Positions 11,801 to 55,330 of a DNA stretch of 64,000 bases are shown here, in pieces. The notes under the pieces are model-generated. The model saw only the letters and a program-made list of their open reading frames with translations. It did no database searches and had not been told where the DNA came from. Positions within the stretch are counted from its first letter, which is position 1. Each line of letters starts with the position of its first letter. A program made the translations under genes and the position numbers. The DNA comes from Protula sp. h YS-2021 (lineage: Eukaryota; Annelida; Polychaeta; Sabellida; Serpulidae), in contig OX457028.1 of assembly GCA_949752745.1 (NCBI GenBank), positions 27,678,645 through 27,742,644 on the forward strand, read 5' to 3'.

Positions 11801-12024
11801 TATAGCGTCATAAGCAGTAATGTGATATTATAGCGAAAAAATCACGTAGCAGAGGGACGGTTCACTCTTCGCATGTGGAACCGTTTGCATTTTTAACGAG
11901 TTCTTATGCCACTGAGTAGAAACCCAAAAATGGCAAAACAAAAAGAAAGAAACAAAAACCAAAGTAACTTTTTAAAGGAAAAGTATTCCGGAGTTCTATC
12001 ACTTCTTATTAATAAATAGCCGGG

Positions 12025-12140: not shown

Positions 12141-12249
12141 ATGGCAGATTTTTTAAATCAGCAAAACTTGTACATTTCATTCCTTTTTTAATTTTCAACC
12201 TCGCCTTTCATCTACTTTTACATAATTATCACTAGGAAATTAATCTGCT

Positions 12250-12471: not shown

Positions 12472-12589
12472 CTTGATGTGATAATTTGGCTACTTTTTGG
12501 TGAGCTTTTATACAACCATTTACGTTCTCCGGACGCAAATCTGATATCCATAAATAAACCAAACTACTCCGGAAAACACCATCATCAGT

Positions 12590-13143: not shown

Positions 13144-13144
13144 T

Positions 13145-14145: not shown

Positions 14146-14399
14146 TAAAGTTTGTAAGGATCAGCAAATGCCCCGGGTTGACCTAGTTTAAAGCAAATAT
14201 TGGTTAAGTAGTCTTTCCACGTCCACATGTTAGCACTAAATGATCACCACTTGTCAACATATCTTACATTTTATTTCGCCTCATAACTCAATCAACATGT
14301 CTTACAGCTTATTCCTTTTTTACAAATCAAGTATAGACACAATGGTGTGAATAACTGGAGTCCATTGATCTTCAATGTGCACTAACCACCTACTTAATT

Positions 14400-30954: not shown

Positions 30955-31136
30955 GTATGATATTTATACAACAAATATTAAATTGTACCACACTGGCTTA
31001 CATGGAAGTACAAAGCAGAGACTTCTCTTATTCTGCTAAAAGCTATGTAAACACACGAAAACTGTTTACATTTATTCTAGCGTCTTGAAAGGTGACTACA
31101 AAAGTCATCGATCCTTTACTTTGTACTCGTACCTGA

Positions 31137-31187
31137 CTGAACCTGGCAGACAATAAGCCAGCAGACAATAAGGCCAGCAGACAATAA
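31137..31187 (+). repeat. Left terminal motif triplet of the giant element
   Basis: Three adjacent copies of CAGACAATAAG spaced by (G)CCAG (31147-31187). The first two copies form the imperfect terminal inverted repeat with 47402-47437. Likely transposase-binding sites (inference). Confidence 0.75.
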
Positions 31188-31209
31188 GAAGTCCTTTGTT
31201 TTGTTCGCG

Positions 31210-31480
31210 GAAGGCATGAATTTTACAAGAAATGTCGCAAAATGCAAATGTAAACATTGACTATTAGTTAATGAGTAAAGTTAAATGATGTGTACAGTCT
31301 ATATGTTGTGATTTCATTGCAGGTGGAGACAACAAAGAAAAATGCTGTAAAAGGTGTTTACAAGAAATGTCGCAAAATGCAAATGTAAACATTGACTATT
31401 AATTAATGAGTAAAGTTAAATAATGTGTAGAGTTTGATCTGTATGTTGTGAGTTCATTGAAGGTGGAGACAAACAAAGTT
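31210..31480. repeat. Two-copy direct repeat inside the left end
   Basis: ACAAGAAATGTCGCAAAATG through GGTGGAGACAA is present twice (about 31218-31331 and 31359-31471). Both copies contain a CATTG(C/A)AG|GTGGAGACA acceptor-like junction. Immediately after, AAATAAAACAAC-type words (31480-31575) recur three times; on the minus strand they supply AATAAA polyadenylation signals for the giant ORF. Confidence 0.8.
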
Positions 31481-31728
31481 GTTTTATTTCTAATAAAAGA
31501 TTACTTTTAAATAGAAGAGTTGTTTTATTTCAAATAAAAGAATACTTTAAAATGGAAGGTTGTTTTATTCTCATAACCTTCTTTAATTCAATAAAGTAAC
31601 AAAAGGTGAAAAAATGGAAAAAGAACGAACAAATAACAAAGCGTTCTAAATAATAAACGGTTACAAAACAGATTACCAAGCCCAACTAAAAAACCTGAGT
31701 ATAAATATTTATATAAAATAATCGCATT

Positions 31729-34700
31729 TTAAAACGCAAACAATTTGGTATTCACTATCTTACCATGAAATAATTCCCATGCAATCGTTTCTCTGGCAAG
31801 GCGCGGGTCAAATTTCATTCGCATATTATAAATTAAACACTTTGCCATGAAACAAACGAAAGGACCACAGCTCACTGAATCTGTCTGTGGCAAAAAATCT
31901 TTTCTTTCACTGAAATACCGAACTTTCCAAACATTTATATCTTCACACATTTGTTTTTGAATTAAACTTGCCTGACAAATGAATTGAAGTAGCGAGCCGA
32001 CGATATTATCATGGCAAGAACCACTCGAATCACAAACTGTTATAATTTTATCCTTCATATGGACAACTGCCAATACCCAATGCATGTTAGCTATGTTAAT
32101 AGGTAACAGCAAAACGTCATGTCTGAAAATCGATTCTGGTGCAAATAAATGAAACTTGTACATTTTTGGTTGGTTTGGGTTGCTATTTACAAAGTAGTAT
32201 TGATTAAACCAACCTGCTGGTGCTGCGATGGTCTTCCTTGGTGACGATCTTGATAACAAATCAAAATAAATGCTTAAGGCGTCTGAGGAAAACCACTTTT
32301 CGTATGTCAGAATATCTTTTAAAATTCTTTCAGTTACATGGTACGCCCCAATTTTTCCACTAAATCCATCAATTTTGTTGCAAAAACTTTTAAGAGGGGT
32401 TTCAGACAGATTATTTTTTATGGAAAATCCTTCTTTGGAAAGCTGAAACCGTAAGGAGTAATGCTTGCGATCTAAAACAACAATAGCTGTATCACAACCT
32501 GTTGTGTAATTTTCTACTGTTTTATTACCTGCACTTTTGATCTCACCGGAAATCAATATTTCTTCAAATTGGTTATCCGATTTCGGTTCCCTAAGACGCC
32601 TAAAAATTTTCCACGGGTTGTTATCAAAAAATAACAAAATAGTACTTACCTCAAACGTGTCTGCTGTTAATGGATAGGCATCTTTGATTATGCTATTAAT
32701 GTCGATTGTTTTGGAAAGCGATTTTAAGTTCAATTTTTTTAAGCATACCAATAAACTACTATGTACCAGTCTAATATACGGATAATTTGTACCCATATCC
32801 ATCTGACATTTACCACATTGAAGAGGTGCCTTACTACTGTTTAATTCTTTGTCAACGGACAGTTTTAAGGCCGATGGATCCAGACTGTCTAATTCTAAAA
32901 CATGAATCATTTTACCCCATTCCAAAGCGTTTTTGCAAATGCATTCCAGACCGTTCCAAGAATGAAATCCAAATAAGGCGTTTTGAGGTAAATCTTGATC
33001 AATCCCGGTGTTGCATGCTAAGAATTCTAGTACTTGTCGTAAGTAGGTAAACGGATGATTTTCAACTAACGAGCCAATTTTTCCAGTAAGCGCCTTGTGA
33101 ACCAGTTCAGCTAGTAACTCAAACTCGTATTCAGTTTTGGCAGTTTTCAGTAATATTTCAATTTCTTGAATTTCAATATTAGATGACTCCTGTTCGAAAT
33201 TGCCCAATAAATCTAACTTACTTTTTAGTTTCAAATTTTGCACCGATTTGCTGACTGATAATATTTTAAGTAGCGGAGCTACAAATCGTGGAATAGAAAC
33301 TGTGTGATCACAACGCTCATAGATTAACAGATAGGCACCTTTTTGGACCGAGGTATTGAAAGCTCCATTAACTAGTTCACACTGTGGCTCACTCATATCA
33401 CTGAGATAGGTCAATGCCACTTCGCCACTTGCTCTGTTTATAATGGAGGCAGTGTAGTGACCAGTAGATATTGATTTTCCATGATGAGACACAATAGATT
33501 TTAAGGCAAACATCGACGTTTCGAAACCGTGTTTGTCGTTGAAATATATGTATTCGTTTAATTCTATTGGTCTCGAATCCTTAACAATCATGTTGTTCAT
33601 TTTAACAGTTCTATTAATTGTTACCAAAACAGTGTTTTGTATTTGAGTGAAGCGGGTTTTGAACGTTGCATCGGTATTCCGCCTGCAGATATGACAATGT
33701 GCTTTCCCCTTTTCCTCACCAAAGTTTGCATCGAGCAGTTTTTGAACCGTCGCTGTATTATCAAGAGCCGAAATCTGAACAAAATGTTCAGAAATTTTGG
33801 TTAGGTCTGTGTGGCCGCACGAATCACAAGTTCTAATTCTTTCCGCAGTGGTGGAATAACCAATATTATGTAGAAGTTGTGTAATTACAGAACAAAAAAA
33901 ATCATGGGGATCATTTTCTGTCTCATTGGTGAACCTTTCTGGTAAAGTTTCCCAAGAATTTGATGGTTTAGCAAACACTTCAACAAGGAAATCTTTGGGC
34001 ACCGAAGAATCAACATTGGTTCGCAAAAAATACCATATTCTCAGGAGATATTTCAAGGGTCTTCTCAAACTGGAAAAATTTGTTTTACATAAAATTTTTG
34101 TTACCATATCAGTAGGAGCCAACGCTTGCATAAGAGCATTCAACCAGCAGTTATTTTGAATATTAGGCAATTTGCAAAATTTATTTAATATCGAAGTTTC
34201 AAAACTTGGTTTCCTAAGTGAATTTTGCTCAGCTTGCGCCTTTGATTTGAAAATAGTATCCTCTTTCGATTTCTTTGTTTTCTTTAGAACTTCAAAAACA
34301 GGTAATGGTTGCTTTGGAGGCTGCTGGAATTTTCCTTTTCCTTTGTTTTGCTTAAGTTGATTGGGTTCAGGCTTGCGTTTGTTCCATTCCTCCCTCAATT
34401 CTGCCTTGGGCTTTGAGTCTTTTTCAATAGTATCTTTGCGCAGTTTATCAGTTTTTAGAGCTGACTCACCCACAGTTTTATGTATTGCCTGCCAACTTTC
34501 AAACATTACACCAATAAAATCATCTAGTCGTAGTTGAGACTGCCCGTTTAGATCGACACGTTTCACAACATTGAACCTGGCTTCAGCTATTGACGTTAGT
34601 TTTGAGGGGATATGAGCGGAACGATAAAGATCGTGATATGGTACAGAATCTAAAGGAAGATTCATCTCGCTGTAATTTTTTGAATGCCGTTTAAGATCAC

Positions 34701-37700
34701 CAAGAAGCAAATCGCCCCAAATTGGAAGACAAGAAAGGTATTGCTTACTCAAAATATTCATAAATTCCGGTTTATATCGATTGTTCAGAGCCAGTGTATT
34801 TAAATCTTTCCCCCATGCTTCGTCATTTTGCATAATACTTTTTTCAACTGACACCATAACTGATTTTGCCCAACTGCTAAATTTTGAACTAGGAAGCCTT
34901 GCCATTACTTCTGCTTCATCGTAAAAGCCAAAGGGTATTTTCCTTGGTGAGTGTGCAACGTCGTCGGCGTATTCCTCAAGTTCTTCTACATTTAGCACAT
35001 TAGTGGAGTAGCTATTTATTTTTTCAATTAAACGTGTGCTTGCTTGTTCACAGAGGTTCGTTACGTACTTACTACACATGACAACGCCTGCGTCAAAAAC
35101 TATTTCGGACGCCTCGCTAAGTTTTTTGCAATTAGCTAGCAACGCTACAGTTCTCATGCCGAATTGGGAATTTCTTTTACCGTAAATTTCAAGACATTTT
35201 TTAGAAATTCTGTGCATGAAATGGCTTAAACACACTCTTATGACAGTTTTTTTAAAATCGCTCTCTACTGCATCACCTGTCACTATTTTCCAAGCTCGAT
35301 TTACATACTCCAAAAGATCCTCCTTATTCAAACTGTGTAAAATTGCCTTAATGCTCGCCATTGCCCAATCTATGTTTATTTGAATTGGTAAAGATAAGTT
35401 GTTGTAGCCAAAAACTTTTTGCTCGGATGCCCTAAAAGCGGTTAAAAAATGTGCTATTGTTGTCCAGGATTGTGAATCACTAATCATTGCGGCAATTGGT
35501 ATTGAACTTTTTTTAGGAATTGGATTTCGAAATGATATCTCATAATAAAGAAATTGTTTTCCGTTTTCAGTTCGTCTCACAACACTGCCTGTTGCATCTA
35601 AAAATGCAGCATCACGACGACAAAGCTCATGCCAAATTATTACACTTGAGTATGACCACATGAAAACAAAACGTGGATCAAGGCTTATACCGTGAATGAA
35701 ACCTGGCAAAGCCTTTTTACTTGAAAGTTTTTGTTCGTATTCAGCTTTTAGAGCAATTAAGCTTTGAAAAGTGTCAGGCAAGACCCTGTGTTTTTGTCTA
35801 CTTTCACTAGAAATTTTTTGCAAAGTATTTAGTGATCCACCTATTCCGTCCATATTACCAGCAACTATTTCTGCCCCAGTTTTTTCGTTCATTTTTTCAT
35901 GGAAATGCTTCAGTGGCTTTTTACCAGCTGCAAAAAGTTCCTTTAAATTCCTTCTTTCAGAACCAACGATATGTCTTGCATGTCTTTCTCCGATGTCGTG
36001 CTTAATGTTGTTATCTTTATGCACTACCTGTACTTCTTGATGATTAAACATTTTAAGAATAACAGCTAGAGGGCAGTCTTTAAATAAACAACTAGCTTTT
36101 GCAGTAAATAGAGGTGCCTTTGTTTTTCTTTCATTAGATATAGATACTTTATGATATTCAAACTTGAAAACACATGTTTTATTGTGCAATTTCAATCCCC
36201 CAAGAAAAAGCTGCTGCCATTCGTTTTTAGGCAGAGTCCGACCCTTACGCTGGTCATAAATTGAAATCCAGCTTTTTGTTTCTATTTTGAATTCGTAGGT
36301 TTCTGGTTCAACCTTACCTAATACAAATTTTTCTGGTATTTTTGTATCGAGAATCTCTTCTAACAGTGTATTTGAAAAAGGCAATTTTTTTTCATTTTCA
36401 TTGGGGGTTTCAGTGGCATTCTTTGAAATATCCAACAATTCATTACATCCATGATTTAAAAGCTCTGAAGGAATTTCATGCTTTTTCGAAGCAGACACAT
36501 TACAATGTTCTTTTAAAATATTACTATGGGAAATTTCATTCAGGTTATCTTCAGTCAGCGTATTGCACTTCGGGTTTTGGTTAATTCCATCACGAGTGAC
36601 ATTTTCACGAGAAGTTTCATGCATACTCGAGGCCGATACATCACAATGTTCCTTAGAAATATTACAGTGTAAAACTTCTTTCAGTTTGCGTTCAGTTAAA
36701 GGACTGCCCTCTTGATTATGGCTAATTTCATTTCTTTCTTGATCAGTTTTTCCAGTTACAGTTTGTGTGCTTGCAACTGGTTGTGGCGGCTTTTTGTAAA
36801 GCCAGGTGTTTTGTTTTAAAACATCTGGTCTTCGGTCACCATAATCGTACCTTAGTTCTGTGTTTGGCTCTATATCTCTAGCTGCTATCATTGCAACGCG
36901 GGGTGAAGACCCGTCCCTTACTACTTTTAATAAAACATTTTCCCCCTGTTTATCTCCACGCCCGTGATTTATGTACTTACCGAAACATTCCGTTCGTGTA
37001 GCATCAATTGCACAGTCTGGAAGAAACATTACTCGAGTAGTATCTTCTATGGCGTTTGCTAAGTGCAATGGGACAACATTTCCTTTGTACTCTAACAATA
37101 CCTCCCCTTTTATAATATTAGTTGTCGTTCTGACGCCCTTTCCAATGACTGGATCGATATCAAAAATTTCAAGTTTTTTGTTTTCACATAAACCATTTAA
37201 CTGTTCAAGTAAAGTCAGAGGTTTTCTACGGGCTCTCCTGGGCTTTGGACTTTCCTTGGTGATAGCGTTATTCGAAATCTGTTGTGGTTCTTCATGACTT
37301 TTTGGCTCTTTGGGGGTTTGGTCAGCTTTGTTTTGAATTGATTGAACAGTTGTCTCGTCAGGAACGCCATTTGAAGGCATATGTAATTGGGACTTATCAG
37401 AATCGTTTTCTGAGCTTAATTCGCGATAAGGCTTGTAGTCTTGAAGTGGTGTCTCATTAAAAGACGTTTCTGGACTTCTAGGCAAAAAATCAGGGTCGCA
37501 AAAATTACTTACAACTGACGGAATTTCATTTCGTTTGCTAGAAATGTTAAATTCTAAAACAGTATTATCCCTAATCTTTAAGTAGCCAACGCCAGAGTTA
37601 CAATTGGCAAATCCACAACGAAAGGATGAGTCCGAAGCTTTCCGAGGAATGTAAAGATTTTTAGGGATATTAACACACTCCCAATGGTACCACTCGTCAC

Positions 37701-39711
37701 ATGAATCGCACTGAATCATGGGTTCTCTGGATCGGCCTTGGCATATGCAGTAAGTTGGAAGATTTGGTTGAGATTTTTTTTTACGATGTAAATCTTGATT
37801 ATTGACATTTGATTCTGTTTTAAATGACTCAAACTGCCAGATTGAGGACTGTTTTTTCTTCCGTTTGCGCTTTGGTCTTACATTTGAAGCCGGATTTAAA
37901 TTTACTTCTTCGGTCTCAGAATTGCTGAAATTTTCAGTAGAATGTTCTTTAGAGGTTTCTGGCCTAGCTACCAATCCATCAGAGAAAAGTTTTCTTTTTT
38001 TACTTTGTTGATTGTCAATGCAACTTTGTGTAACAGTAACAGACTTTTCAACACCGTTTACTTCGGACGACTCTATTGGTGATACACTTGGTAAAAATTT
38101 TGGTGTTTCATTCATTTTATAGGGTGTTGATGTTTGAAGCTGCTTAATATTTTGCTGAATAGTTTTGCCAGAATCAGATACGTTTGATGGAAGTGCGTTG
38201 CTTTGCCCATTCTCTTCCTTTGACCCACTCTTTGCCTGCATACGTTTATAAGCTGTGTAGAGTTTTTTCTTATTTGTTTCGTTGTTTGACCAACCTAATT
38301 CGCGAAGAATGATTCCCCACGGGCTTTCACTGCTGCGCCAAGATAGAGATTCCCAAGTTTTTGATTCTACTACCTCCAATACTTTACCCAAAACAAAATC
38401 ACTTACCTCGTTAACAACGGGCTTTGAGCGCTTGTATCGGGGACCACCACCACAAGAAACCTGTACTTCGTTCTTATGCTGAAATCCTATATTCTGACCA
38501 ATAAAATGATTTATCTCGGTATCAACCGGCTTTGAGTGCTTGTCTTGGGGAGCATACCCACTAGAAACCTGCACTGTATTCTTATAAAACTCTACATTCT
38601 TACCAGTTGAAACCTTTGAACTACTATTTTTACTACCTGGCCAGTGAGCACTTTCTTTTGAAATAACGGCTGCACGAAAATCCTCAAGCAACCTACAGAA
38701 CATATTTTTGCCGTTTTTGTGAATACTCCCCCAAAAGAAATCTGGTACTGGATTACTCAAACGATACCCTATACTGTCTATTAAACTCTTTCTGAAAGGC
38801 ATACATTGTTCCCATTTTAACCGAAATATTTCTTTCATAACAACTACTTTCTGCCTGTTCCAACTAAAACTGTACCTAGGAACATTGCTATTTGCTACAA
38901 CTTTTGCATCATACGCACTATTACAATACCAAATCTGTTCTGCAACCGTGTAACGGTGGAAATGCAACGCTTTCTCGTATTGATACAGGTGCTCTGAGCT
39001 CGAAAATGACCTCCCTTTATATTGAATAATCGAAGGGAAAAAGTTACTCAGGGGATCAAAACGCCCCTTAATTACACGGAGCTGATTTGAATTCGGTACG
39101 GTGACGGAGACCACGGTCGGGACGACCACGGTATCCGGTGGCGCGGATACGACGGAGTCAGACGGCGCGGGGACGACGGAGTCGGACGGCGCGGGGACGA
39201 CGGAGTCGGACGGCGCGGGGACGACGGAGTCGGACGGCACGGCTACGGCGGTGTCGGACGGCACGGCTACGGCGGTGTCCGTATCCGGTGGCGCGGATAC
39301 GACGGAGTCAGACGGCGCGGGGACGACGGAGTCGGACGGCGCGGGGACGACGGAGTCGGACGACGCGGGGACGACGGAGTCGGACGACGCGGGGACGACG
39401 GAGTCGGACGACGCGGGGACGACGGAGTCGGACGGCACGGCTACGGCGGTGTCGGACGGCACGGCTACGGCGGTGTCCCTTGGCGCGGCTACGGCGGTGT
39501 CCGTTGGCGCGGCTGCGGCGGAGTCGGACGGCGCGGGGACGACGGAGTCGGACGGCGCGGGGACGACGGAGTCGGACGACGCGGGGACGACGGAGTCGGA
39601 CGGCACGGCTACGGCGGTGTCGACGGAGTCGGACGGCGCGGGGACGACGGAGTCGGACGACGCGGGGACGACGGAGTCGGACGACGCGGGGACGACGGAG
39701 TAGGACGGCAC
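31729..39711 (-). CDS. Giant multidomain transposon protein: NADAR-PHD-SET-MULE-USP-Ulp1
   Basis: One uninterrupted frame of about 2,660 codons, stop TAA at 31729-31731. Approximate order: 1-205 Ser/Asp/Val/Pro repeats; 213-350 NADAR (PLSNFFP, SSSEHLYQYEKA, DFFWGS, GKNMF), an ADP-ribose-related glycosidase fold; 390-520 a basic helical stretch; 654-705 PHD finger (CICQ, CDSCDEWYHWEC, C-x4-C); 830-960 SET methyltransferase closest to KMT5A (GKYINHG, YDYGDRRPD); 1160-1250 Cys/His FLYWCH-like region; 1345-1660 MULE-like transposase (AAFLDATGS and INIDWA carrying Asp; CLSHFMH); 1850-2133 ubiquitin-specific protease (NNCWLNAL Cys box, two CxxC, STGHYTAS His box); about 2150-2500 unassigned, with CGKC; 2535-2625 Ulp1/SENP protease (HW, CDSSG, QTDSVSCGPF = His-Asp-Gln-Cys). 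No ATG precedes the NADAR domain: the first codon shown is GTG and the frame is open back to a TGA near 39872, so the true start is unresolved. Likely nuclear. Confidence 0.9.
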   Translation of the reverse strand: MPSYSVVPASSDSVVPASSDSVVPAPSDSVDTAVAVPSDSVVPASSDSVVPAPSDSVVPAPSDSAAAAPTDTAVAAPRDTAVAVPSDTAVAVPSDSVVPASSDSVVPASSDSVVPASSDSVVPAPSDSVVPAPSDSVVSAPPDTDTAVAVPSDTAVAVPSDSVVPAPSDSVVPAPSDSVVPAPSDSVVSAPPDTVVVPTVVSVTVPNSNQLRVIKGRFDPLSNFFPSIIQYKGRSFSSSEHLYQYEKALHFHRYTVAEQIWYCNSAYDAKVVANSNVPRYSFSWNRQKVVVMKEIFRLKWEQCMPFRKSLIDSIGYRLSNPVPDFFWGSIHKNGKNMFCRLLEDFRAAVISKESAHWPGSKNSSSKVSTGKNVEFYKNTVQVSSGYAPQDKHSKPVDTEINHFIGQNIGFQHKNEVQVSCGGGPRYKRSKPVVNEVSDFVLGKVLEVVESKTWESLSWRSSESPWGIILRELGWSNNETNKKKLYTAYKRMQAKSGSKEENGQSNALPSNVSDSGKTIQQNIKQLQTSTPYKMNETPKFLPSVSPIESSEVNGVEKSVTVTQSCIDNQQSKKRKLFSDGLVARPETSKEHSTENFSNSETEEVNLNPASNVRPKRKRKKKQSSIWQFESFKTESNVNNQDLHRKKKSQPNLPTYCICQGRSREPMIQCDSCDEWYHWECVNIPKNLYIPRKASDSSFRCGFANCNSGVGYLKIRDNTVLEFNISSKRNEIPSVVSNFCDPDFLPRSPETSFNETPLQDYKPYRELSSENDSDKSQLHMPSNGVPDETTVQSIQNKADQTPKEPKSHEEPQQISNNAITKESPKPRRARRKPLTLLEQLNGLCENKKLEIFDIDPVIGKGVRTTTNIIKGEVLLEYKGNVVPLHLANAIEDTTRVMFLPDCAIDATRTECFGKYINHGRGDKQGENVLLKVVRDGSSPRVAMIAARDIEPNTELRYDYGDRRPDVLKQNTWLYKKPPQPVASTQTVTGKTDQERNEISHNQEGSPLTERKLKEVLHCNISKEHCDVSASSMHETSRENVTRDGINQNPKCNTLTEDNLNEISHSNILKEHCNVSASKKHEIPSELLNHGCNELLDISKNATETPNENEKKLPFSNTLLEEILDTKIPEKFVLGKVEPETYEFKIETKSWISIYDQRKGRTLPKNEWQQLFLGGLKLHNKTCVFKFEYHKVSISNERKTKAPLFTAKASCLFKDCPLAVILKMFNHQEVQVVHKDNNIKHDIGERHARHIVGSERRNLKELFAAGKKPLKHFHEKMNEKTGAEIVAGNMDGIGGSLNTLQKISSESRQKHRVLPDTFQSLIALKAEYEQKLSSKKALPGFIHGISLDPRFVFMWSYSSVIIWHELCRRDAAFLDATGSVVRRTENGKQFLYYEISFRNPIPKKSSIPIAAMISDSQSWTTIAHFLTAFRASEQKVFGYNNLSLPIQINIDWAMASIKAILHSLNKEDLLEYVNRAWKIVTGDAVESDFKKTVIRVCLSHFMHRISKKCLEIYGKRNSQFGMRTVALLANCKKLSEASEIVFDAGVVMCSKYVTNLCEQASTRLIEKINSYSTNVLNVEELEEYADDVAHSPRKIPFGFYDEAEVMARLPSSKFSSWAKSVMVSVEKSIMQNDEAWGKDLNTLALNNRYKPEFMNILSKQYLSCLPIWGDLLLGDLKRHSKNYSEMNLPLDSVPYHDLYRSAHIPSKLTSIAEARFNVVKRVDLNGQSQLRLDDFIGVMFESWQAIHKTVGESALKTDKLRKDTIEKDSKPKAELREEWNKRKPEPNQLKQNKGKGKFQQPPKQPLPVFEVLKKTKKSKEDTIFKSKAQAEQNSLRKPSFETSILNKFCKLPNIQNNCWLNALMQALAPTDMVTKILCKTNFSSLRRPLKYLLRIWYFLRTNVDSSVPKDFLVEVFAKPSNSWETLPERFTNETENDPHDFFCSVITQLLHNIGYSTTAERIRTCDSCGHTDLTKISEHFVQISALDNTATVQKLLDANFGEEKGKAHCHICRRNTDATFKTRFTQIQNTVLVTINRTVKMNNMIVKDSRPIELNEYIYFNDKHGFETSMFALKSIVSHHGKSISTGHYTASIINRASGEVALTYLSDMSEPQCELVNGAFNTSVQKGAYLLIYERCDHTVSIPRFVAPLLKILSVSKSVQNLKLKSKLDLLGNFEQESSNIEIQEIEILLKTAKTEYEFELLAELVHKALTGKIGSLVENHPFTYLRQVLEFLACNTGIDQDLPQNALFGFHSWNGLECICKNALEWGKMIHVLELDSLDPSALKLSVDKELNSSKAPLQCGKCQMDMGTNYPYIRLVHSSLLVCLKKLNLKSLSKTIDINSIIKDAYPLTADTFEVSTILLFFDNNPWKIFRRLREPKSDNQFEEILISGEIKSAGNKTVENYTTGCDTAIVVLDRKHYSLRFQLSKEGFSIKNNLSETPLKSFCNKIDGFSGKIGAYHVTERILKDILTYEKWFSSDALSIYFDLLSRSSPRKTIAAPAGWFNQYYFVNSNPNQPKMYKFHLFAPESIFRHDVLLLPINIANMHWVLAVVHMKDKIITVCDSSGSCHDNIVGSLLQFICQASLIQKQMCEDINVWKVRYFSERKDFLPQTDSVSCGPFVCFMAKCLIYNMRMKFDPRLARETIAWELFHGKIVNTKLFAF

Positions 39712-39870
39712 GGCTACGGCGGTGTCCGTTGGCGCGGCTACGGCGGTGTCCGGTGGCGCGGCTACGGCGGTGTCCGGTGGCGCGGCTACGGCGGTGTCCG
39801 GTGGCGCGGCTACGGCGGTGTCCGGTGGCGCGGCTACGGCGGTGTCCGGTGGCGTGGCTACGGCGGTGTC
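39101..39870. repeat. GC-rich 24-bp coding minisatellite
   Basis: About 30 units of 24 bp (for example GACGGCGCGGGGACGACGGA + GTCG, or GGCGCGGCTACGGCGGTGTC + C) with a few 6-bp slips. In the minus frame of the giant ORF it gives the eight-residue repeats SDSVVPAS/P and SDTAVAVP. All other frames are also open, yielding long Arg-rich or Thr/Glu/Ser/Gly frames that I treat as artefacts. GC content contrasts sharply with the AT-rich surroundings. It runs straight into the 349-bp array. Confidence 0.9.
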
Positions 39871-42800
39871 CGGTCAAATAAAAAAATTGGAGCGATTTTT
39901 CTGAAGAATTTCTTAAAAAATTTAGTTTTGCCCGGGGGGCCGGGCACCCGTCCCCACCCCCGGGCCTTGTGCCGCAAAAAATTTTATACCATCGGAAGCG
40001 TACATGTACCCTTCAACTTTCTCCCAAGTATCATCTCGCAAATCGGTCATATGAGTGTTTGACAGCGAAAAATAACCCCACCTTCCTTATTGTCTGCTGG
40101 CTAAAAAAAAATTTCAAAATGGCCGCCCACCCCGGTCTGACCTTGTGCCGCATTTTTGACCTCACCATCTTGTTTGTATACTAGAGGTGCATAACTGAGC
40201 CAAGTTTGGTTGAGGAAATCGGTCAAATAAAAAAATTGGAGCGATTTTTCTGAAGAATTTCTTAAAAAATTAGTTTTGCCCGGGGGGCCGGGCACCCGTC
40301 CCCACCCCCGGGCCTTGTGCCGCAAAAATTTTTATACCATCGGAAGCGTACATGTACCCTTCAACTTTCTGCCAAGTATCATCTCGTAAATCGGTCATAT
40401 GAGTGTTTGACAGCGAAAAATAAACTCCCCTCCCTTACTGTCTGCTGGCTAAAAAAAACTTTCAAAATGGCCGCCCGAACCGGTCTGACCTTGTGCCGCA
40501 TTTTTGCCCTCACCATCTTGTTTATATCCTAGAGGTGCATAAGTGAGCCAAGTTTGGTTGAGGAAATCGGTCAAATAAAAAAATTGGAGCGATTTTTCTG
40601 AAGAATTTCTTAAAAAATTTAGTTTTGCCCGGGGGGGCGGGCACCCGTCCCCACCCCCGGTCCTTGTGCCGCAAAAATTTTTATACCATCGGAAGCGTAC
40701 ATGTACCCTTCAACTTTCTGCCAAGTATCATCTCGCAAAACGGTCATATGAGTGTTTGACAGCGAAAAATAAACTCCCCTCCCTTACTATCTGCTTGCTA
40801 AAAAAAAATTTCAAAATGGCCGCCCACCCCGGTCTGACCTTGTGCCGCATTTTTGACCTCACCATCTTGTTTGTATACTAGAGGTGCATAACTGAGCCAA
40901 GTTTGGTTGAGGAAATCGGTCAAATAAAAAAATTGGAGCGATTTTTCTGAAGAATTTCTTAAAAAATTTAGTTTTGCCCGGGGGGCCGGGCACCCGTCCC
41001 CACCCCCGGGCCTTGTGCCGCAAAAATTTTTATACCATCGGAAGCGTACATGTACCCTTCAACTTTCTGCCAAGCATCATCTCGCAAATCGGTCATATGA
41101 GTGTTTGACAGCGAAAAATAAACTCCCCTCCCTTACTGTCTGCTGGCTAAAAAAAACTTTCAAAATGGCCGCCCGACCCGGTCTGACCTTGTGCCGCATT
41201 TTTGCCCTCACCATCTTGTTTATATCCTAGAGGTGCATAAGTGAGCCAAGTTTGGTTGAGGAAATCGGTCAAATAAAAAAATTGGAGCGATTTTTCTGAA
41301 GAATTTCTTAAAAAATTTAGTTTTGCCCGGGGGGCCGGGCACCCGTCCCCACCCCCGGTCCTTGTGCCGCAAAAATTTTTATTCCATCGGAAGCGTACAT
41401 GTACCCTTCAACTTTCTGCCAAGCATCATCTCGCAAATCGGTCATATGAGTGTTTGACAGCGAAAAATAAACCCTCCTTCCTTACTGTCTGCTGGCTAAA
41501 AAAAAAAATCAAAATGGCCGCCCACCCCGGTCTGACCTTGTGCCGCATTTTTGACCTCACCATCTCGTTTGTATCCTAGAGGTGCATAAGTGAGCCAAGT
41601 TTGGTTGAGGAAATCGGTCAAATAAAAAAATTGGAGCGATTTTTCTGAAGAATTTCTTAAAAAATTTTGTTTTGCCCGGGGGGCCGGGCACCCGTCCCCA
41701 CCCCCGGGCCTTGTGCCGCAAAAATTTTTATACCATCGGAAGCGTACATGTACCCTTCAACTTTCTGCCAAGTATCATCTCGCAAATCGGTCATATGAGT
41801 GTTTGACAGCGAAAAATAAACCCTCCTTCCTTACTGTCTGCTGGCTAAAAAAAAAAATCAAAATGGCCGCCCACCCCGGTCTGACCTTGTGCCGCATTTT
41901 TGACCTCACCATCTCGTTTGTATACTAGAGGTGCATAAGTGAGCCAAGTTTGGTTGAGGAAATCGGTCAAATAAAAAAATTGGAGCGATTTTTCTGAAGA
42001 ATTTCTTAAAAAATTTTGTTTTGCCCGGGGGGCCGGGCACCCGTCCCCACCCCCGGGCCTTGTGCCGCAAAAATTTTTATACCATCGGAAGCGTACATGT
42101 ACCCTTCAACTTTCTGCCAAGTATCATCTCGCAAATCGGTCATATGAGTGTTTGACAGCGAAAAATAAACCCTCCTTCCTTACTGTCTGCTGGCTAAAAA
42201 AAAAATTCAAAATGGCCGCCCACCCCGGTCTGACCTTGTGCCGCATTTTTGACCTCACCATCTTGTTTGTATACTAGAGGTGCATAAGTGAGCCAAGTTT
42301 GGTTGAGGAAATCGGTCAAATAAAAAAATTGGAGCGATTTTTCTGAAGAATTTCTTAAAAAATTTAGTTTTGCCCGGGGGGCCGGGCACCCGTCCCCACC
42401 CCCGGGCCTTGTGCCGCAAAAAATTTTATACCATCGGAAGCGTACATGTACCCTTCAACTTTCTCCCAAGTATCATCTCGCAAATCGGTCATATGAGTGT
42501 TTGACAGCGAAAAATAACCCCACCTTCCTTATTGTCTGCTGGCTAAAAAAAAATTTCAAAATGGCCGCCCACCCCGGTCTGACCTTGTGCCGCATTTTTG
42601 ACCTCACCATCTTGTTTGTATACTAGAGGTGCATAACTGAGCCAAGTTTGGTTGAGGAAATCGGTCAAATAAAAAAATTGGAGCGATTTTTCTGAAGAAT
42701 TTCTTAAAAAATTTAGTTTTGCCCGGGGGGCCGGGCACCCGTCCCTACCCCCGGGCCTTGTGCCGCAAAAATTTTTATACCATCGAAAGCGTACTTGTAC

Positions 42801-45800
42801 CTTTCAACTGTCTGCCAAGTATCATCTCGCAAATCGGTCATATGAGTGTTTGACAGCGAAAAATAACCCCACCTTCCTTATTGTCTGCTGGCTAAAAAAA
42901 ATTTCAAAATGGTCGCCCACCCCGGTCTGACCTGGTGCCTCATTTTTGACCTCACCATCTTGTTTGTATACTAGAGGTGCATAAGTGAGCCAAGTTTGGT
43001 TGAGGAAATCGGTCAAATAAAAAAATTGGAGCGATTTTTCTGAAGAATTTCTTAAAAAATTTAGTTTTGCCCGGGGGGTCGGGCACCCGTCCCCACCCCC
43101 GGGCCTTGTGCCGCAAAAATTTTTATACCATCGGAAGCGTACATGTACCCTTCAACTTTCTGCCAAGTATCATCTCGCAAAACGGTCATATGAGTGTTTG
43201 ACAGCGAAAAATAAACTCCCCTCCCTTACTGTCTGCTTGCTAAAAAAAAATTTCAAAATGGCCGCCCAACCCGGTCTGACCTTGTGCCGCATTTTTGACC
43301 TCACCATCTTGTTTGTATACTAGAGGTGCATAACTGAGCCAAGTTTGGTTGAGGAAATCGGTCAAATAAAAAAATTGGAGCGATTTTTCTGAAGAATTTC
43401 TTAAAAAATTTAGTTTTGCCCGGGGGGCCGGGCACCCGTCCCCACCCGCGGTCCTTGTGCCGCAAAAATTTTTATACCATCGGAAGCGTACATGTACCCT
43501 TCAACTTTCTGCCAAGTATCATCTCGCAAAACGGTCATATGAGTGTTTGACAGCGAAAAATAAACTCCCCTCCATTACTGTCTGCTTGCTAAAAAAAAAT
43601 TTCAAAATGGCCGCCCACCCCGGTCTGACCTTGTGCCGCATTTTTGACCTCACCATCTTGTTTATATCCTAGAGGTGCATAAGTGAGCCAAGTTTGGTTG
43701 AGGAAATCGGTCAAATAAAAAAATTGGAGCGATTTTTCTGAAGAATTTCTTAAAAAATTTAGTTTTGCCCGGGGGGCCGGGCACCCGTCCCCACCCCCGG
43801 TCCTTGTGCCGCAAAAATTTTTATTCCATCGGAAGCGTACATGTACCCTTCAACTTTCTGCCAAGTATCATCTCGCAAATCGGTCATATGAGTGTTTGAC
43901 AGCGAAAAATAAACTCCCCTCCCTTACTGTCTGCTGGCTAAAAAAAATTTTCAAAATTGCCGCCCACCCCGTCCTGACCTTGTGCCGCATTTTTGGCCTC
44001 ACCATCTTGTTTGTATACTAGAGGTGCATAAGTGAGCCAAGTTTGGTTGAGGAAATCGGTCAAATAAAAAAATTGGAGCGATTTTTCTGAAGAATTTCTT
44101 AAAAAATTTAGTTTTGCCCGGGGGGCCGGGCACCCGTCCCCACCCCCGGGCCTTGTGCCGCAACAATTTTTATACCATCGAAAGCGTACATGTACCCTTC
44201 AACTGTCTGCCAAGTATCATCTCGCAAATCGGTCATATGAGTGTTTGACAGCGAAAAATAAACCCTCCTTCCTTACTGTCTGCTTGCTAAAAAAAAATCA
44301 AAATGGCCGCCCACCCCGGTCTGACCTTGTGCCGCATTTTTGACCTCACCATCTTGTTTATATACTAGAGGTGCATAAGTGAGCCAAGTTTGGTTGAGGA
44401 AATCGGTCAAATAAAAAAATTGGAGCGATTTTTCTGAAGAATTTCTTAAAAAATTAGTTTTGCCCGGGGGGCCGGGCACCCGTCCCCACCCCCGGGCCTT
44501 GTGCCGCAAAAATTTTTATACCATCGGAAGCGTACATGTACCCTTCAACTTTCTGCCAAGTATCATCTCGCAAATCGGTCATATGAGTGCTTGACAGCGA
44601 AAAATAACCCCACCTTCCTTATTGTCTGCTGGCTAAAAAAAAAATTTCAAAATGGCCGCCCACCCCGGTCTGACCTTGTGCCGCATTTTTGACCTCACCA
44701 TCTTGTTTGTATACTAGAGGTGCATAAGTGAGCCAAGTTTGGTTGAGGAAATCGGTCAAATAAAAAAATTGGAGCGATTTTTCTGAAGAATTTCTTAAAA
44801 AATTTAGTTTTGCCCGGGGGGGGCGGGCACCCGTCCCCACCCGCGGTCCTTGTGCCGCAAAAATTTTTATACCATCGGAAGCGTACATGTACCCTTCAAC
44901 TTTCTGCCAAGTATCATCTCGCAAATCGGTCATATGAGTGTTTGACAGCGAAAAATAAACCCTCCTTCCTTACTGTCTGCTGGCTAAAAAAAAAAATCAA
45001 AATGGCCGCCCACCCCGGTCTGACCTTGTGCCGCAATTTTGACCTCACCATCTTGTTTGTATACTAGAGGTGCATAAGTGAGCCAAGTTTGGTTGAGGAA
45101 ATCGGTCAAATAAAAAAATTGGAGCGATTTTTCTGAAGAATTTCTTAAAAAATTTAGTTTTGCCCGGGGGGCCGGGCACCCGTCCCCACCCCCGGGCCTT
45201 GTGCCGCAAAAATTTTTATACCATCGAAAGCGTACATGTACCCTTCAACTGTCTGCCAAGTATCATCTCGCAAATCGGTCATATGAGTGTTTGACAGCGA
45301 AAAATAAACCCTCCTTCCTTACTGTCTGCTTGCTAAAAAAAAAATCAAAATGGCCGCCCACCCCGGTCTGACCTTGTGCCGCATTTTTGACCTCACCATC
45401 TTGTTTATATACTAGAGGTGCATAAGTGAGCCAAGTTTGGTTGAGGAAATCGGTCAAATAAAAAAATTGGAGCGATTTTTCTGAAGAATTTCTTAAAAAA
45501 TTTTGTTTTGCCCGGGGGGCCGGGCACCCGTCCCCACCCCCGGGCCTTGTGCCGCAAAAATTTTTATACCATCGGAAGCGTACATGTACCCTTCAACTTT
45601 CTGCCAAGTATCATCTCGCAAATCGGTCATATGAGTGTTTGACAGCGAAAAATAAACCCTCCTTCCTTACTGTCTGCTGGCTAAAAAAAAAATTCAAAAT
45701 GGCCGCCCACCCCGGTCTGACCTTGTGCCGCATTTTTGACCTCACCATCTTGTTTGTATACTAGAGGTGCATAAGTGAGCCAAGTTTGGTTGAGGAAATC

Positions 45801-46735
45801 GGTCAAATAAAAAAATTGGAGCGATTTTTCTGAAGAATTTCTTAAAAAATTTAGTTTTGCCCGGGGGGGGCGGGCACCCGTCCCCACCCGCGGTCCTTGT
45901 GCCGCAAAAATTTTTATACCATCGGAAGCGTACATGTACCCTTCAACTTTCTGCCAAGTATCATCTCGCAAAACGGTCATATGAGTGTTTGACAGCGAAA
46001 AATAAACTCCCCTCCCTTACTGTCTGCTTGCTAAAAAAAAATTTCAAAATGGCCGCCCAACCCGGTCTGACCTTGTGCCGCATTTTTGACCTCACCATCT
46101 TGTTTGTATACTAGAGGTGCATAACTGAGCCAAGTTTGGTTGAGGAAATCGGTCAAATAAAAAAATTGGAGCGATTTTTCTGAAGAATTTCTTAAAAAAA
46201 TTAGTTTTGCCCGGGGGGCCGGGCACCCGTCCCCACCCGCGGTCCTTGTGCCGCAAAAATTTTTATACCATCGGAAGCGTACATGTACCCTTCAACTTTC
46301 TGCCAAGTATCATCTCGCAAAACGGTCATATGAGTGTTTGACAGCGAAAAATAAACTCCCCTCCCTTACTGTCTGCTTGCTAAAAAAAATTTTCAAAATT
46401 GCCGCCCACCCCGGTCTGACCTTGTGCCGCATTTTTGGCCTCACCATCTTGTTTGTATACTAGAGGTGCATAAGTGAGCCAAGTTTGGTTGAGGAAATCG
46501 GTCAAATAAAAAAATTGGAGCGATTTTTCTGAAGAATTTCTTAAAAAATTTAGTTTTGCCCGGGGGGCCGGGCACCCGTCCCCACCCCCGGGCCTTGTGC
46601 CGCAAAAATTTTTATACCATCGGAAGCGTACATGTACCCTTCAACTTTCTGCCAAGTATCATCTCGCAAATCGGTCATATGAGTGTTTGACAGCGAAAAA
46701 TAAACTCCCCTTCCTTATTGTCTGCGTGCTTATAT
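39871..46735. repeat. Tandem array of 349-bp units, about 20 copies
   Basis: The landmark GTGCCGCAAAAA(A/T)TTTTAT recurs every 346-350 bp (39969, 40317, 40666, 41015 ... 46597). Each unit holds CTTA(T/C)TGTCTGCTGGCTA (or TGCTTGCTA), the transposon end motif; AAAATGGCCGCCC, a YY1-like word; and a near-palindromic GCCCGGGGGGCCGGGC. Units differ by a few percent and form higher-order blocks: unit 1 equals unit 8, units 5 and 12 share the same ATTCCATC variant, and units 13-15 resemble 16-18 (a 1,047-bp block). Each unit has a 71-codon frame, but it simply follows the repeat. The last unit is truncated at about 46730. Confidence 0.95.
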
Positions 46736-47376
46736 ATGTGTGCTACCACCGGGGAGTGCCAATTTATTGCACAAGAAATCGTTGTGCGAGCACGCTGTGG
46801 GAGTCGAACCCACAATAACACACAGCGTTAAGCAGACTTCTTGAGAAAATGAGCATGATTGGATTTTATGTTTTAAAAAATGCTGTTTACACTAAGGCAT
46901 GATGCAGTGCAATATGGTCTAGCGGTATCAGCCTTTTGAGAAACTCTTTATATTTACTTATAAACAATTTTTTGTCGTTTAAGTGAACAGAAGATTATCC
47001 TGACTTAAAATAAGGATGTCATAGTGAACTTCTAATTTGTGATGAAACCTGGAATAATGACCGCAAAGGCTGTTTGCACATTAAAAGACCACATTTTCAA
47101 TTTTGCCAATTACGTTGTGCTGTTCAATTACATGTTTCTCTCCTTGTAACACATGTAAGCAACGTTTCTATTTGAATCACATAAAATGTGAGGAATCGAT
47201 ACAGGATACTTGTACCTCTTATTGTTGTTGCTGTTGTTGTTTTGTTTACGTGTGTATTAATATGGTGGATGTTCTTTGTTACGTTTTTTTTTTAAACACA
47301 TCTTTTCAAGAACTCATATTATCACTCACTTTGTTTTGACAAATATTGAAGTGTTCGCGAATTATAACCTTAAATT
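46730..47376. other. Right subterminal DNA with tRNA-like pieces
   Basis: After the last array unit comes AT-rich DNA holding two tRNA-derived pieces in opposite orientation: GTGGGAGTCGAACCCACA (46796-46814), the complement of a B box/T-arm (GGTTCGACTCCC), and on the plus strand ATATGGTCTAGCGGTATCAG (46911-46930), close to the 5' half of tRNA-Glu including the A box. They do not form one tRNA. A short CTTATTGTTGTTGCTG run lies near 47217. No gene seen. Confidence 0.5.
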
Positions 47377-47437
47377 CCTTATTGTCTGCCAGCTTCAGTT
47401 TCTTATTGTCTGCTGGCTTGTTGTCTGCTAACTTCAG
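47377..47437 (-). repeat. Right terminal motif triplet of the giant element
   Basis: Three copies of (C)TTATTGTCTGC(C/T) at 47379-47391, 47402-47414 and 47418-47430 (the last with TTGTTGTCTGC), the inverse of the left end. Spacing differs from the left: the inner pair is separated by an extra AGCTTCAGTTT. Confidence 0.75.
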
Positions 47438-47879
47438 CTTTCCGTAATCAGTATCCGTAGCTCCAAGTTAGCCGATCTTCGCATTTACTTGACACATATT
47501 TCACATTTAAAAGCTTTGAATTATATCATAGCAGCTTCTACATGACTATGGAGTAAATATTTCTGTCTTCTATCAAAAACTTCGAAAATGCGCAAAAAAC
47601 AGCGTTATCGCGGAGGCTCTGTTTTTATTTATTCTGATTTGACGTTCTTTTTGTGGAGTGTTTTTGTATATTGTTGATTGTGAATGAGTTTTTAATGATA
47701 AAGCTGTTAGGGTACCATGTTCACAATGAAGGCTTTTCCGGTATAAAGTTAGAAAACAACTTTATTTTATTTAGCCTCGATTTGATATGATATAGGTGCT
47801 AGTGGTTTGCCTTTACGCACGGACCGGCCTCGTTTTGATCAAAATGGGACAAAGTCACCAGCACAGACTAGCAATCAGT

Positions 47880-49390
47880 ATTTTGCTGTTTCTTAGGCCC
47901 AAACCCTACAGGTTTGGGGGCCTATAGACTTGGGGTGTCTGTCTGTCTGTCCGTCATCGCTTTTTTGTACAAGCGATATCTCGAGAACGCAGAGGCCTAG
48001 AGACTTGATGTTGGGCTCATTTGAAAAGTCTCGACTTGTAGATGTGCCTTTTGGCCATTTTGGCCGATTTCGGTCACGTGATCGTGGCCAAATTGGCCAA
48101 AAAAACGCAAAAATCGACTTGTGTTTGTACAGGCGATATCTCAAGAACGCAGAGGTCTAGAGACTTGATGTTGGGCTCATTTGAAAGGACTCGACTTGTA
48201 GATGTGCCTTTTGGCCATTTTGGCCAAATTCGATCACGTGATCTTGGCCAAATGGGCCAAAAACGCCAAAAATCGACTTTTGTTTGTACAGGCGATATCT
48301 CGAGAACGCAGAGGCCTAGAGACTTGATGTTAGGCTCATTTGAAAGATCTCGTGTTGTAGATGTGCCTTTTTGCCATTTTGGCCGATTTCGGTCACGTGA
48401 TCTTGGCCAAATTGGCCAAAAAACGCAAAATCGACTTGTGTTTGTACAGGCGATATCTCGAGAACGCAGAGGCATAGAGACTTGATGTTGGGCTCATTTT
48501 AAAGGTCTCGACTTATAGATGTGCCTTTTGGCCATTTTGGCCAAATTCGATCCCGTGATCATGGCCAAATGGGCCAAAAACGCCAAAAATCGACTTGTGT
48601 TTGTACAGGCGATATCTCGAGAACGCAGAGGCCTAGAGACTTGATGTTAGGCTCATTTGAAAGATCTCGTGTTGTAGATGTGCCTTTTGGCCATTTTGGC
48701 CGATTTCGGTCACGTGATCTTGGCCAAATTGGCCAAAAAACGCAAAAATCGACTTGTGTTTGTAAAGGCGATATCTCGAGAACGCAGAGGCATAGAGACT
48801 TGATGTTGGGCTCATTTTAAAGGTCTCGACTTATAGATGTGCCTTTTGGCCATTTTGGCCAAATTCGATCACGTGATCTTGGCCAAATGGGCCAAAAACG
48901 CAAAAAATCGATTTGTGTTTGTACAGGCGATATCTCGAGAACGCAGAGGCTTAGAGACTTGATGTTAGGCTCATTTGAAAGATCTCGTGTTGTAGATGTG
49001 CCTTTTGGCCGATTTCGGTCATTTGATCTTGGCCAAATTGGCCAAAAAACGCAAAAATCGACTTGTGTTTGTACAGGCGATATCTCGAGAACGCAGAGGC
49101 ATAGAGACTTGATGTTGGGCTCATTTTACAGGTCTCGACTTATAGATGTGCCTTTAGGCCATTTTGGCCTAAATCGGTCACGTGATCTTGGCCAAATTGG
49201 CCAAAAAACGCAAAAAAAATCTATGTGTGTTTGTACGGGCGATATCTCGAGAACGCATAGGCCTAGAGACTTGATGTTAGGCTCATTTGAAAGGTCTCGA
49301 CTTGTAGATGTGCCTTTTGGCCATTTTGGCCAAATTCGGTCACGTGTTCTTGGTCAAATTGGCCAAAAATCCACTTGTTCTTTAAAAGCA
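47880..49390 (+). mobile_element. Hairpin-headed element with about 9 copies of a 159-bp core
   Basis: It opens with the hairpin GCCCAAACCCTACAGGTTTG + GGGGCC, a GTCTGTCTGTCTGTCCGTC tract, then core copies starting GCGATATCTCGAGAACGCAG at 47973, 48133, 48292, 48450, 48609, 48768, 48927, 49077 and 49239. Each core contains GATCACGTGATC (perfect palindrome with a CACGTG E-box) flanked by TTGGCC/GGCCAA pairs. Two core types alternate (CCAAATTCGATCACGTG and CCGATTTCGGTCACGTG), giving a dimeric higher-order repeat of about 318 bp for the first seven copies. Long open frames on both strands merely follow the repeat. Pearl/Helentron-associated class by architecture. Confidence 0.75.
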
Positions 49391-53550: not shown

Positions 53551-54205
53551 GTTTATTTAGTAAACTTTGGTTCAAAATGCATCTCCTCCTACAATTTTGA
53601 TCCGATGTCATTTATTTTTGGTGTGAGGTATCCCTAAGGGGTCGTGCATACGGCTTGTGCTTTTCTAGTCGATCGGGTGATTTTTGAATTTTTGGCGAAT
53701 TTTTAAAGAAAAAATTTTAAAATGTATCTCCTCCTACATTTTTGACCCGATGTCATTTATTTTTGGTATAAGGCACCCCTAAAGGGTCGTGCATACGGCT
53801 TGTGCTTTTTTAGTCGATCGCGCAATTTTTGTATTTTTGGGGAATTTTTAAAGCAAAATTTTCGAAAATAATTCAAAATGCATCTACTCCTACAATTTTG
53901 ATTCGATGTCATTTATTTTTGGTGTGAGGCATCCCTAAGGAGTCGTGCATACGGCTTGTGCTTTTTTAGTCGATCGGGTGATTTTTGAATTTTAGGGGAA
54001 TTTTTAAAGAAAAAAATTTAAAATGTGTCTCCTCCTACATTTTTGACCCGATGTGATTTATTTTTGGTATGAGGCATCCCTAAAGTGTCGTGCATACGGC
54101 TTGTGCTTTTCTAGTCGATCGGGTGATTTTTTAATTTTTGGGGAATTTTTGAAGAAAAAACTTTAAAATGTATCTCGTCCTACATTTTTGATCCGATGTC
54201 TTTTT
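53440..54205 (+). mobile_element. Hairpin-headed element with about 150-bp core and (TTAG)n
   Basis: It begins AGCCCAGCTTACGTTACACG + TAAGCTGGG, a strong hairpin, then a (TTAG)n run of about 13 units (53495-53549), then five core copies starting near 53581, 53726, 53882, 54027 and 54172 with CCTCCTACAnTTTTGA and CATACGGCTTGTGCTTTT blocks. Instead of GTCY it has TTAG as its microsatellite, which marks a distinct subfamily. It abuts the next element. Confidence 0.7.
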
Positions 54206-55330
54206 TTTTAGCCCAGTTTGCTTTTTAGCCAACAGGGCTATACAGATGGGGGCAAGAATCGTCCGTCTGTCCGTCCGTCCGTCCGTCTGTCCGTCCCGCG
54301 ACCGTTAAAAGTGGAATAACTTTTTTATTTTTTATCCGATTCTTACCAAATTTTAAACACGAGTTCCTAACCCTTTACTGCATTAGGAAATATTTTTATT
54401 TTTGCGGTTTAAACCATTTTTGGTGATTTTATTGCCAATTTGGGCAAAATACGAAAAAACCTATCTAGGCCCTCATTTTTCATCGGAAGATTCCGAAATT
54501 TTTTATGAAGAAACTAGGACTAAGGGGTAAAAAAAGTACTTTTTTCGATTTTTGAATTTCGCCTTATTTTTGAATCTACTGAGCTTCAAAGTTTGCAACT
54601 TCTAAAAATTGACAAATTTCCAATTTTTTTTTCTGAACAAAGTAGTTAAAGTGGAATATCGTTTTTATTTTTTATCCGATTCGTACCAAATTTTTTACAC
54701 GAGTTTTTAACCTTCTACTGCATTAGGATTTTTTTTATTTTTTGGTTTAAACCATTTTTGGCGATTTTATTGCCAATTTGGGCAAAATACGAAAAAACCT
54801 ATCTAGTCCCTCATTTTTCATCGGAAGATTCCGAAATTTTTCATGAAGAAACTAGAACTAAGGGGTGAAAAAAGTTCTTTTTTCGATTTTTGAATTTCGC
54901 CTTATTTTTGAATCTACTGAGCTTCAAAGTTTGCAACTTCTAAAAATTGGCAAATTTCCTTTTTTTTTTCTTAACAAAGTAGTTAAAGTGGAATATCTTT
55001 TTTATTTTTCATCCGATTCGTACCAAATTTTAAACGCGAGTTTTTAACCTTCTACTGCATTAGGATTTTTTTTTTATTTTTTGGTTTAAACCATTTTTGG
55101 CGATTTTATTGCCGATTTGGGCAAAATACGAAAAAATCTATCTAGTCCCTCATTTTTCATCGGAAGATTCCGAAATTTGTTATGAAGAAACTAGAACTAA
55201 GGGGTGAAAAAAAGTACTTTTTTCGATTTTTGAATTTCGCCTTATTTTTGAATCCACTGAGCTTCGAAGTTTGCAGCTTTTAAAAAATTGGAAATTTCCA
55301 TTTTTCTTCTTAAAAAAGCAAAGTTTGAAT
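54206..55330 (+). mobile_element. Hairpin-headed element with about 338-bp core, 3 copies
   Basis: It begins TAGCCCAGTTTGC...CAGGGCTATA, followed by GTCCGTCTGTCCGTCCGTCC (54263-54296), then three cores starting AAAGTGGAATA at 54308, 54648 and 54985, each with TTTTTATCCGATTC and CATCGGAAGATTCCGAAATT (a near-palindrome). No coding capacity. Confidence 0.7.

Follow-up and report, generated by a model that had tools for sequence, protein, structure and literature searches.

A stretch of 64,000 nucleotides from the serpulid annelid Protula sp. h YS-2021 (C5:27678645-27742644, hereafter the window) carries a Mutator-like DNA transposon with a DDE transposase, in which one stop-free frame joins the transposase core to five further domains in the order NADAR-PHD-SET-DDE-USP-Ulp1. 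Pairs of such domains have already been published, and the full set in one protein appears to be new. Because the transposase is joined to modifier domains, and because their order is kept in two further intact copies, the set is viewed here as a likely kit for passing host silencing and repair. The explanation favoured, with a confidence slightly above even, is that the modifier domains of this single protein act in the transposition complex, allowing the element to escape silencing and to survive its own breaks.

One frame with six domains

The frame lies on the minus strand and comprises 2714 codons plus stop, and five Pfam families match the 2,714-residue product above their curated cut-offs. 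These are NADAR (residues 274-401, 3e-11; 44.3 bits against a cut-off of 35.1), PHD (709-741, 6e-7), SET (911-1012, 4e-10), UCH, corresponding to the USP domain (1900-2185, 8e-12), and Peptidase_C48, corresponding to Ulp1 (2580-2689, 2e-15). An original prediction made from the letters alone had placed all five, together with a transposase core resembling those of Mutator-like elements (MULEs), in a single stop-free frame; profile searches bear out the five, while the core found no MULE match in Pfam. The open frame proposed there is real, but it runs to 39873 rather than 39711, and the whole element is about twice as long. Sequence searches of the PDB (Table 1) agree with the Pfam assignments, KMT5A being the best match of the SET domain, and the USP domain matched USP4, USP15 and USP36 weakly (0.002-0.009). 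When family proteins P0002-P0007 and residues 263-2714 of P0001 were used in tblastn, the window was matched at this frame alone.

The key catalytic residues are mostly present, as had been predicted, with NADAR departing from this at one position discussed below. The USP triad (C1909/H2139/D2159) and the Ulp1 residues H2598/D2615/Q2663/C2669 are invariant in seven family proteins and in all three intact copies (the window copy and those named C7 and C1a). These copies also retain the NH and YDYGD motifs of SET and, in 3/3, the Cys/His pattern of the PHD finger. Across the catalytic positions compared, the three agree everywhere save at the NADAR position equivalent to E125 and its neighbour.

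Residues 1-262 are a 24-bp minisatellite without any Met, the earliest Met being residue 346, within NADAR. The window frame therefore lacks its own start codon; presumably it represents an exon or a 5'-damaged gene. Among the open frames listed in 46726-47440, no clear candidate for a 5' exon of the window copy was found. The frame is also open across minisatellite repeats of the 24-bp type in copies C2a, C5b and C1b.

The transposase core and its superfamily

In an alignment of 27 family proteins, D1426 and D1502 are at least 90% conserved and E1764 is invariant, with C1548xxH1551 sitting before it; a C/DxxH ahead of the last E is a feature of Mutator-type DDE cores. A predicted WRKY-like zinc DNA-binding domain precedes the core. 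The closest match of a core structure model built from 24 sequences (predicted local distance difference test score, pLDDT, 83) was ISCth4, a Mutator-type transposase of the IS256 family, and integrases ranked below ISCth4, Hermes, the P element and RAG1, all at low template-modelling (TM) scores. An earlier model from seven sequences was poor (pLDDT 56.9) and was not used. No Pfam transposase model was matched by the window protein or figured among the hits of the 27 family proteins, and the window core piece searched at E up to 10 returned no family.

The DDE assignment is made because of the conserved D1426/D1502/E1764, the predicted fold and the 9-bp target duplications of sister copies. 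Such duplications measure 8-11 bp in the Mutator superfamily (PMC6446971), and the present family joins them to terminal inverted repeats (TIRs) and a DDE core with CxxH. The MULE-like core of the original prediction thus stands on these features and not on a Pfam match.

Copies, mobility and selection

A search of the genome (863 Mb, 218 contigs) gave 47 matches, grouped by hand into at least 14 loci with the window included; this number is a lower bound, 17 of 6397 first-look candidates having been scored. Sequence was examined, whole or in part, for 10 of the 13 loci outside the window (C8 in part). Copies span 10-26 kb. Two of them, C7 (13.9 kb, frame of 3177 codons) and C1a (25,605 bp, 2807 codons), lie on two other contigs and have stop-free frames that repeat the order NADAR-PHD-SET, then UCH-C48, with DDE between. 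Copies keeping the domain order, for which the original prediction had called, are therefore present, their domains being 52-77% identical to those of the window protein. Decayed copies, up to 96% identical, occur at further loci.

Among the seven copies with both ends, the window included, five are flanked by perfect 9-bp target duplications, C1b by one matching at 7/9 positions, and the window copy at 3/9, equivalent to none. C7 and C11, on different contigs, share 99.95% identity over 5.7 kb, a sign that the family moved recently. C11 (region 5291-15287, L026-L027) is itself a recent copy with a perfect 9-bp duplication; it lacks the residues before 1165, and with them NADAR, PHD and SET, and retains DDE-USP-Ulp1, the satellite and the GDSI stretch described below. 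In C1b, the 5' part of the gene that bears NADAR recurs together with satellite pieces (region 9638-13890, L012-L013), giving four NADAR coding segments. Only the left end of C4 and C6 was visible in the 10 kb examined, and the C10 stretch holds 200 N, which cut its frame.

All six domains are under purifying selection. In each of the three pairs formed by the window, C7 and C1a, the proportion of nonsynonymous differences (pN) lies far below that of synonymous differences (pS) in every domain, synonymous sites being near or at saturation. The linker at residues 1040-1150 is closer to pS than the domains are (pN/pS.46/.74 to.67/.74), at an alignment identity of 10-32% where misalignment may supply part of pN. 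Because purifying selection extends to all six domains, the modifier kit looks used.

The intact sister copies C7 and C1a are in addition predicted to carry an SGNH hydrolase split by an intron that contains satellite sequence. Their long frames start with one SGNH half (DGLHLN), and the other half, a stretch with GDSI and GTND, lies upstream (region coordinates 18784-18548 in C7, 29545-29301 in C1a and 6942-7178 in C11); satellite sequence separates the two pieces in all three copies. The DGLHLN half of C7 by itself falls below the Pfam cut-off. When the two C1a pieces are spliced in silico at their predicted sites, the product matches GDSL-type hydrolases (Pfam 2e-8; PDB 4c1b, an ORF1-encoded protein, 2e-4). 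The GDSI piece, that is, the SGNH exon, had no match in the window, C1b and C2a elements, and in C5b a chance-level match alone (E 0.12), outside the element.

Element ends and satellite

The termini were set by aligning the left and right ends and by comparison with sister copies carrying 9-bp target duplications. The gene being on the minus strand, its 5' side faces the high coordinates. The ends of the window copy align as inverted repeats over 32 of their 36 outer bp. A 15-base motif, TTATTGTCTGCTGGC, has 23 matches in the window at up to two mismatches against 0.10 expected, all within 31157-47417. When three mismatches are allowed, the left end has three copies of the motif in minus orientation, each satellite unit one (20/20) and the right end three in plus orientation, with one stray match at 11320.

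The satellite unit measures 349 bp in the group of the window copy and 352 bp in others, and units of different groups are about 66-78% alike over 180-220 bp. Unit number varies from 0 (C2a) through roughly 1-3 (C1b, C7, C5b) and 20 (window) to more than 30 in C1a, where 26.3 and 7.7 units form two stretches. The 11 motif matches of C10 and the six of C11 read TTATTTTCTGCTGGG; at the element ends, C7 and C11 have TTATTTTCTGATAGC. Relative to the window group, both forms share a G-to-T change, which as a single change is no more than a hint.

A tRNA-like sequence (window 46735-46835) adjoins the last satellite unit and contains GGTTCGACTCCCAC, which we liken to a B-box motif. It is probably a tRNA-derived short interspersed nuclear element, because similar stretches occur in C1a, C1b, C7 and C10; ARAGORN detected no tRNA. 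Tandem arrays outside the element occupy 47964-49369 (159/317 bp), 53571-54209 (145/301 bp) and 54308-55318 (338 bp), and two other large ones 55423-59561 (114 bp x 36) and 60879-62258 (37 bp x 37), the last within a 720-codon open frame on the plus strand (60826-62988).

Table 1. Features of the element in the window (residues refer to the window protein).
Feature	Position	Strand	Evidence
Whole element, 16,313 bp	31131..47443	minus	End alignment and sister copies; duplication of window copy 3/9
Left terminal repeat, 3 motif copies in minus orientation, up to 3 mismatches	31131..31188	.	
Right terminal repeat, 3 motif copies in plus orientation, up to 3 mismatches	47379..47443	.	
349-bp satellite array, ~20 units, 1 terminal motif each	39871..46735	.	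TRF, 19.7 copies, 96% matches
Stop-free frame, 2714 codons + stop	31729..39873	minus	Open reading frame analysis
24-bp minisatellite within frame, residues 1-262, PSDSVVPA-type repeats	39088..39873	minus	
NADAR domain, residues 274-401	38671..39054	minus	Pfam; YbiA structure 2b3w, E 1.2e-6
PHD finger, residues 709-762	37588..37749	minus	Pfam; Spp1, ING and CXXC1 structures
KMT5A-like SET domain, residues 890-1030	36784..37206	minus	Pfam; KMT5A structures, E 4e-10
WRKY-like zinc DNA-binding domain (predicted), residues 1195-1300	35974..36291	minus	
DDE transposase core, residues 1390-1800 (D1426, D1502, C1548xxH1551, E1764)	34474..35706	minus	Alignment, predicted fold
USP (ubiquitin hydrolase) domain, residues 1900-2185	33319..34176	minus	Pfam; weak PDB sequence matches
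Ulp1/SENP-type SUMO protease domain, residues 2515-2714	31732..32331	minus	Pfam; SENP1 structures, E 2e-18

Relatives and domain history

The protein search returned relatives that include proteins of Mytilus, Pinctada, Palaemon and Tribolium. Those of Mytilus, Pinctada and others share DDE, USP and Ulp1, often with PHD, and are without NADAR or SET. At E up to 0.01, Pfam matched UCH in 21 of the 27 proteins, C48 in 18, PHD in 14 (some of these under Pfam's own cut-off), BAG in five, and NADAR and SET in three each; the 27 include the N-terminal parts of C7 and C1a (their UCH and C48 lie in the other part) and some short relatives. A SprT-like domain was weakly matched in one protein (E 0.0026). 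The kit shared across the family seems to consist of DDE, USP and Ulp1, in many cases with PHD.

Among the matches inspected, NADAR and SET were confined to three proteins of the Protula genome, which form a clade with 100/100 support on a long stem (26 of the 27 rows were placed in the tree, that of P0023 being too short). With residues 262-1060 as query, no NADAR-SET relative was found among 3304 candidates (proteins of about 1490-4750 amino acids being eligible), and an IMG/VR scan with the family alignment gave 82 pattern matches, none confirmed. BAG occurs in P0003, P0008, P0012, P0015 and P0018, accompanied by PHD at least in P0003 and P0015; in P0003, whose cluster represents 441 member sequences, it stands between PHD and the DNA-binding domain, where the window protein has SET, with NADAR in front. 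Because NADAR and SET are found in the three Protula proteins alone, and the shared domains are DDE, USP and Ulp1, the two were probably added in the present lineage, and BAG elsewhere.

Comparison with known elements

The likeness to MULEs comprises the ISCth4-like DDE core, the zinc DNA-binding domain in front of it, the terminal inverted repeats and the 9-bp duplications. Some MULEs carry Ulp1, OTU or SET. MULEs with Ulp1 are described from hydra, lancelet and plants (PMC2836005), and 14 members of MULE-Phytophthora_1 in oomycetes have SET (PMC6446971), whereas here NADAR, PHD, SET, USP and Ulp1 share one protein, Pfam yields no MULE match, and copies reach 10-26 kb. The original prediction was thus right, and understated, in holding that pairs like that of MULE and Ulp1 were already known, since PHD, Ulp1 with PHD, and NADAR also occur in other mobile elements, as follows.

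Rehavkus is described with a 9-bp target duplication, PHD in the transposase and a minisatellite before the 3' TIR (PMC6446971). The present family shares the duplication length, the PHD finger and a tandem-repeat block, but its arrays lie on the 5' side of the gene, within predicted intron 1 in the sisters. The comparison is with the description of Rehavkus alone, and the passages on it in PMC6446971 mention no USP, Ulp1, SET or NADAR. Membership in Rehavkus is not claimed, the repeat block being on the opposite side. Ginger1 has a transposase with C-terminal Ulp1, in one family also with PHD (PMC2836005); its DDE domain is of the Gypsy-integrase type with YPYY and GPY/F motifs, whereas the model of the core studied here is nearest, at a low TM-score, to ISCth4, and the target duplications are of 9 bp. 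A Trichomonas transposase_11 protein has a C19 peptidase (PMC2836005).

In SETMAR a SET domain is fused to a transposase (PMC8704517, PMC9062482). This is a host gene of primates, its transposase is of the mariner type, and unlike the present protein it is without proteases. NADAR has been described in retrotransposons, namely Ectocarpus Gypsy and the first open reading frame of a Crassostrea gigas Tx1 LINE (PMC12477816); a mobile-element NADAR is thus shared, but these are retroelements without a transposase or proteases of the present type. The foldback elements Galileo and Tetris likewise have tandem repeats within the element, and Tetris repeats resemble the terminal sequence (PMC4079207); there the repeats lie in long TIRs, whereas here they are placed between an end of the element and the gene, and in the sisters within predicted intron 1. 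The original prediction knew of no element with the full set, and no report of NADAR, PHD, SET, USP and Ulp1 with a transposase was found among the open-literature titles and abstracts listed, subscription papers and Repbase being outside this scope.

Possible functions and alternative explanations

For Ginger elements, ubiquitin and SUMO pathways have been suggested to take part in transposition (PMC2836005). In the explanation favoured here, the WRKY-like domain and the DDE core would bind the terminal motif, then cut and paste. USP and Ulp1, which most relatives also have, would work in cis at the paired ends, stripping ubiquitin and SUMO from the transposase, from histones or from repair proteins, and PHD-SET would target chromatin or write it through histone methylation, KMT5A being an H4K20 methyltransferase. 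NADAR would handle, or merely bind, ADP-ribose adducts near the breaks. All of these functions are inferred from domain identity and selection. It is further proposed that the satellite would supply extra docking sites for the transposase, because Galileo internal repeats contain extra transposase sites (PMC3688188).

In the proposal that the kit would strip ubiquitin, SUMO and ADP-ribose marks at donor or target sites, already part of the original prediction, the ADP-ribose part is weakened by NADAR itself. In P. nicotianae NADAR the catalytic residues are E43, K50 and E125, the class needing E, K and either an acidic residue or His in the final strand. When this numbering is transferred through the YbiA alignment and motif spacing, rather than through the P. 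nicotianae sequence, the equivalents of E43 and K50 are retained, but the E125 position is Ser in the window, Thr in C7 and Ser in C1a. Because NADAR apparently lacks one catalytic residue of solved NADARs, removal of ADP-ribose is doubtful, which weighs against the favoured explanation in this part, and the domain may bind such adducts rather than cleave them.

A bolder version, tentative and rather unlikely, sees in the one polypeptide a full chromatin-breaching machine that would locate the ends, cut and paste, erase ubiquitin, SUMO and ADP-ribose marks and write H4K20-type methylation. Here the satellite, with its 0 to more than 30 units, would be an amplifiable docking array through which the element could establish a chromatin domain of its own and give rise to new satellite DNA.

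Two other accounts are less probable still. The frame could encode a polyprotein processed by its two C-terminal cysteine proteases into transposase, chromatin and ADP-ribose parts, as the C-terminal position of Ulp1, a cysteine protease type, and the fast-changing linkers between domains (such as 1040-1150) might suggest; the closest solved structures are, nevertheless, SUMO proteases and, weakly, ubiquitin hydrolases, and this account is thought improbable. Similarly low is the probability that NADAR, PHD and SET are chance passengers, with USP and Ulp1 alone mattering for transposition. Mutator elements with captured host fragments have been described (Pack-MULEs, PMC6431247), and C11 does without the three domains, but in C7 and C1a, which have diverged so far from the window, the three are still open and purifying selection acts on them.

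That the protein is a domesticated host gene, a fixed single protein whose transposase was captured long ago and which now serves the host, is very improbable. Selection on six domains and the missing target duplication of the window copy would fit it, but the sequence is present at no fewer than 14 loci with terminal repeats, with perfect duplications in 5/7 copies and nearly identical copies on different contigs. A chimeric assembly, or a frame that is open by chance, might be suggested by the start of the frame in low-complexity minisatellite, but has negligible probability given the intact same-order copies on two other contigs and the decayed ones elsewhere. Both of these explanations were rejected in view of the multiple loci, the target duplications and the same-order intact copies.

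Significance

The protein has the richest set of modifier domains in one transposase known to us, and the selection on each of them indicates that all are in use. Its relatives show module swapping, with BAG in P0003 and SET here at one and the same place and NADAR added in front. Because open, recently moved copies exist, the old guess that ubiquitin and SUMO take part in transposition becomes testable with single-residue mutants. In this family, moreover, a satellite DNA is connected with the functional parts of a transposon.
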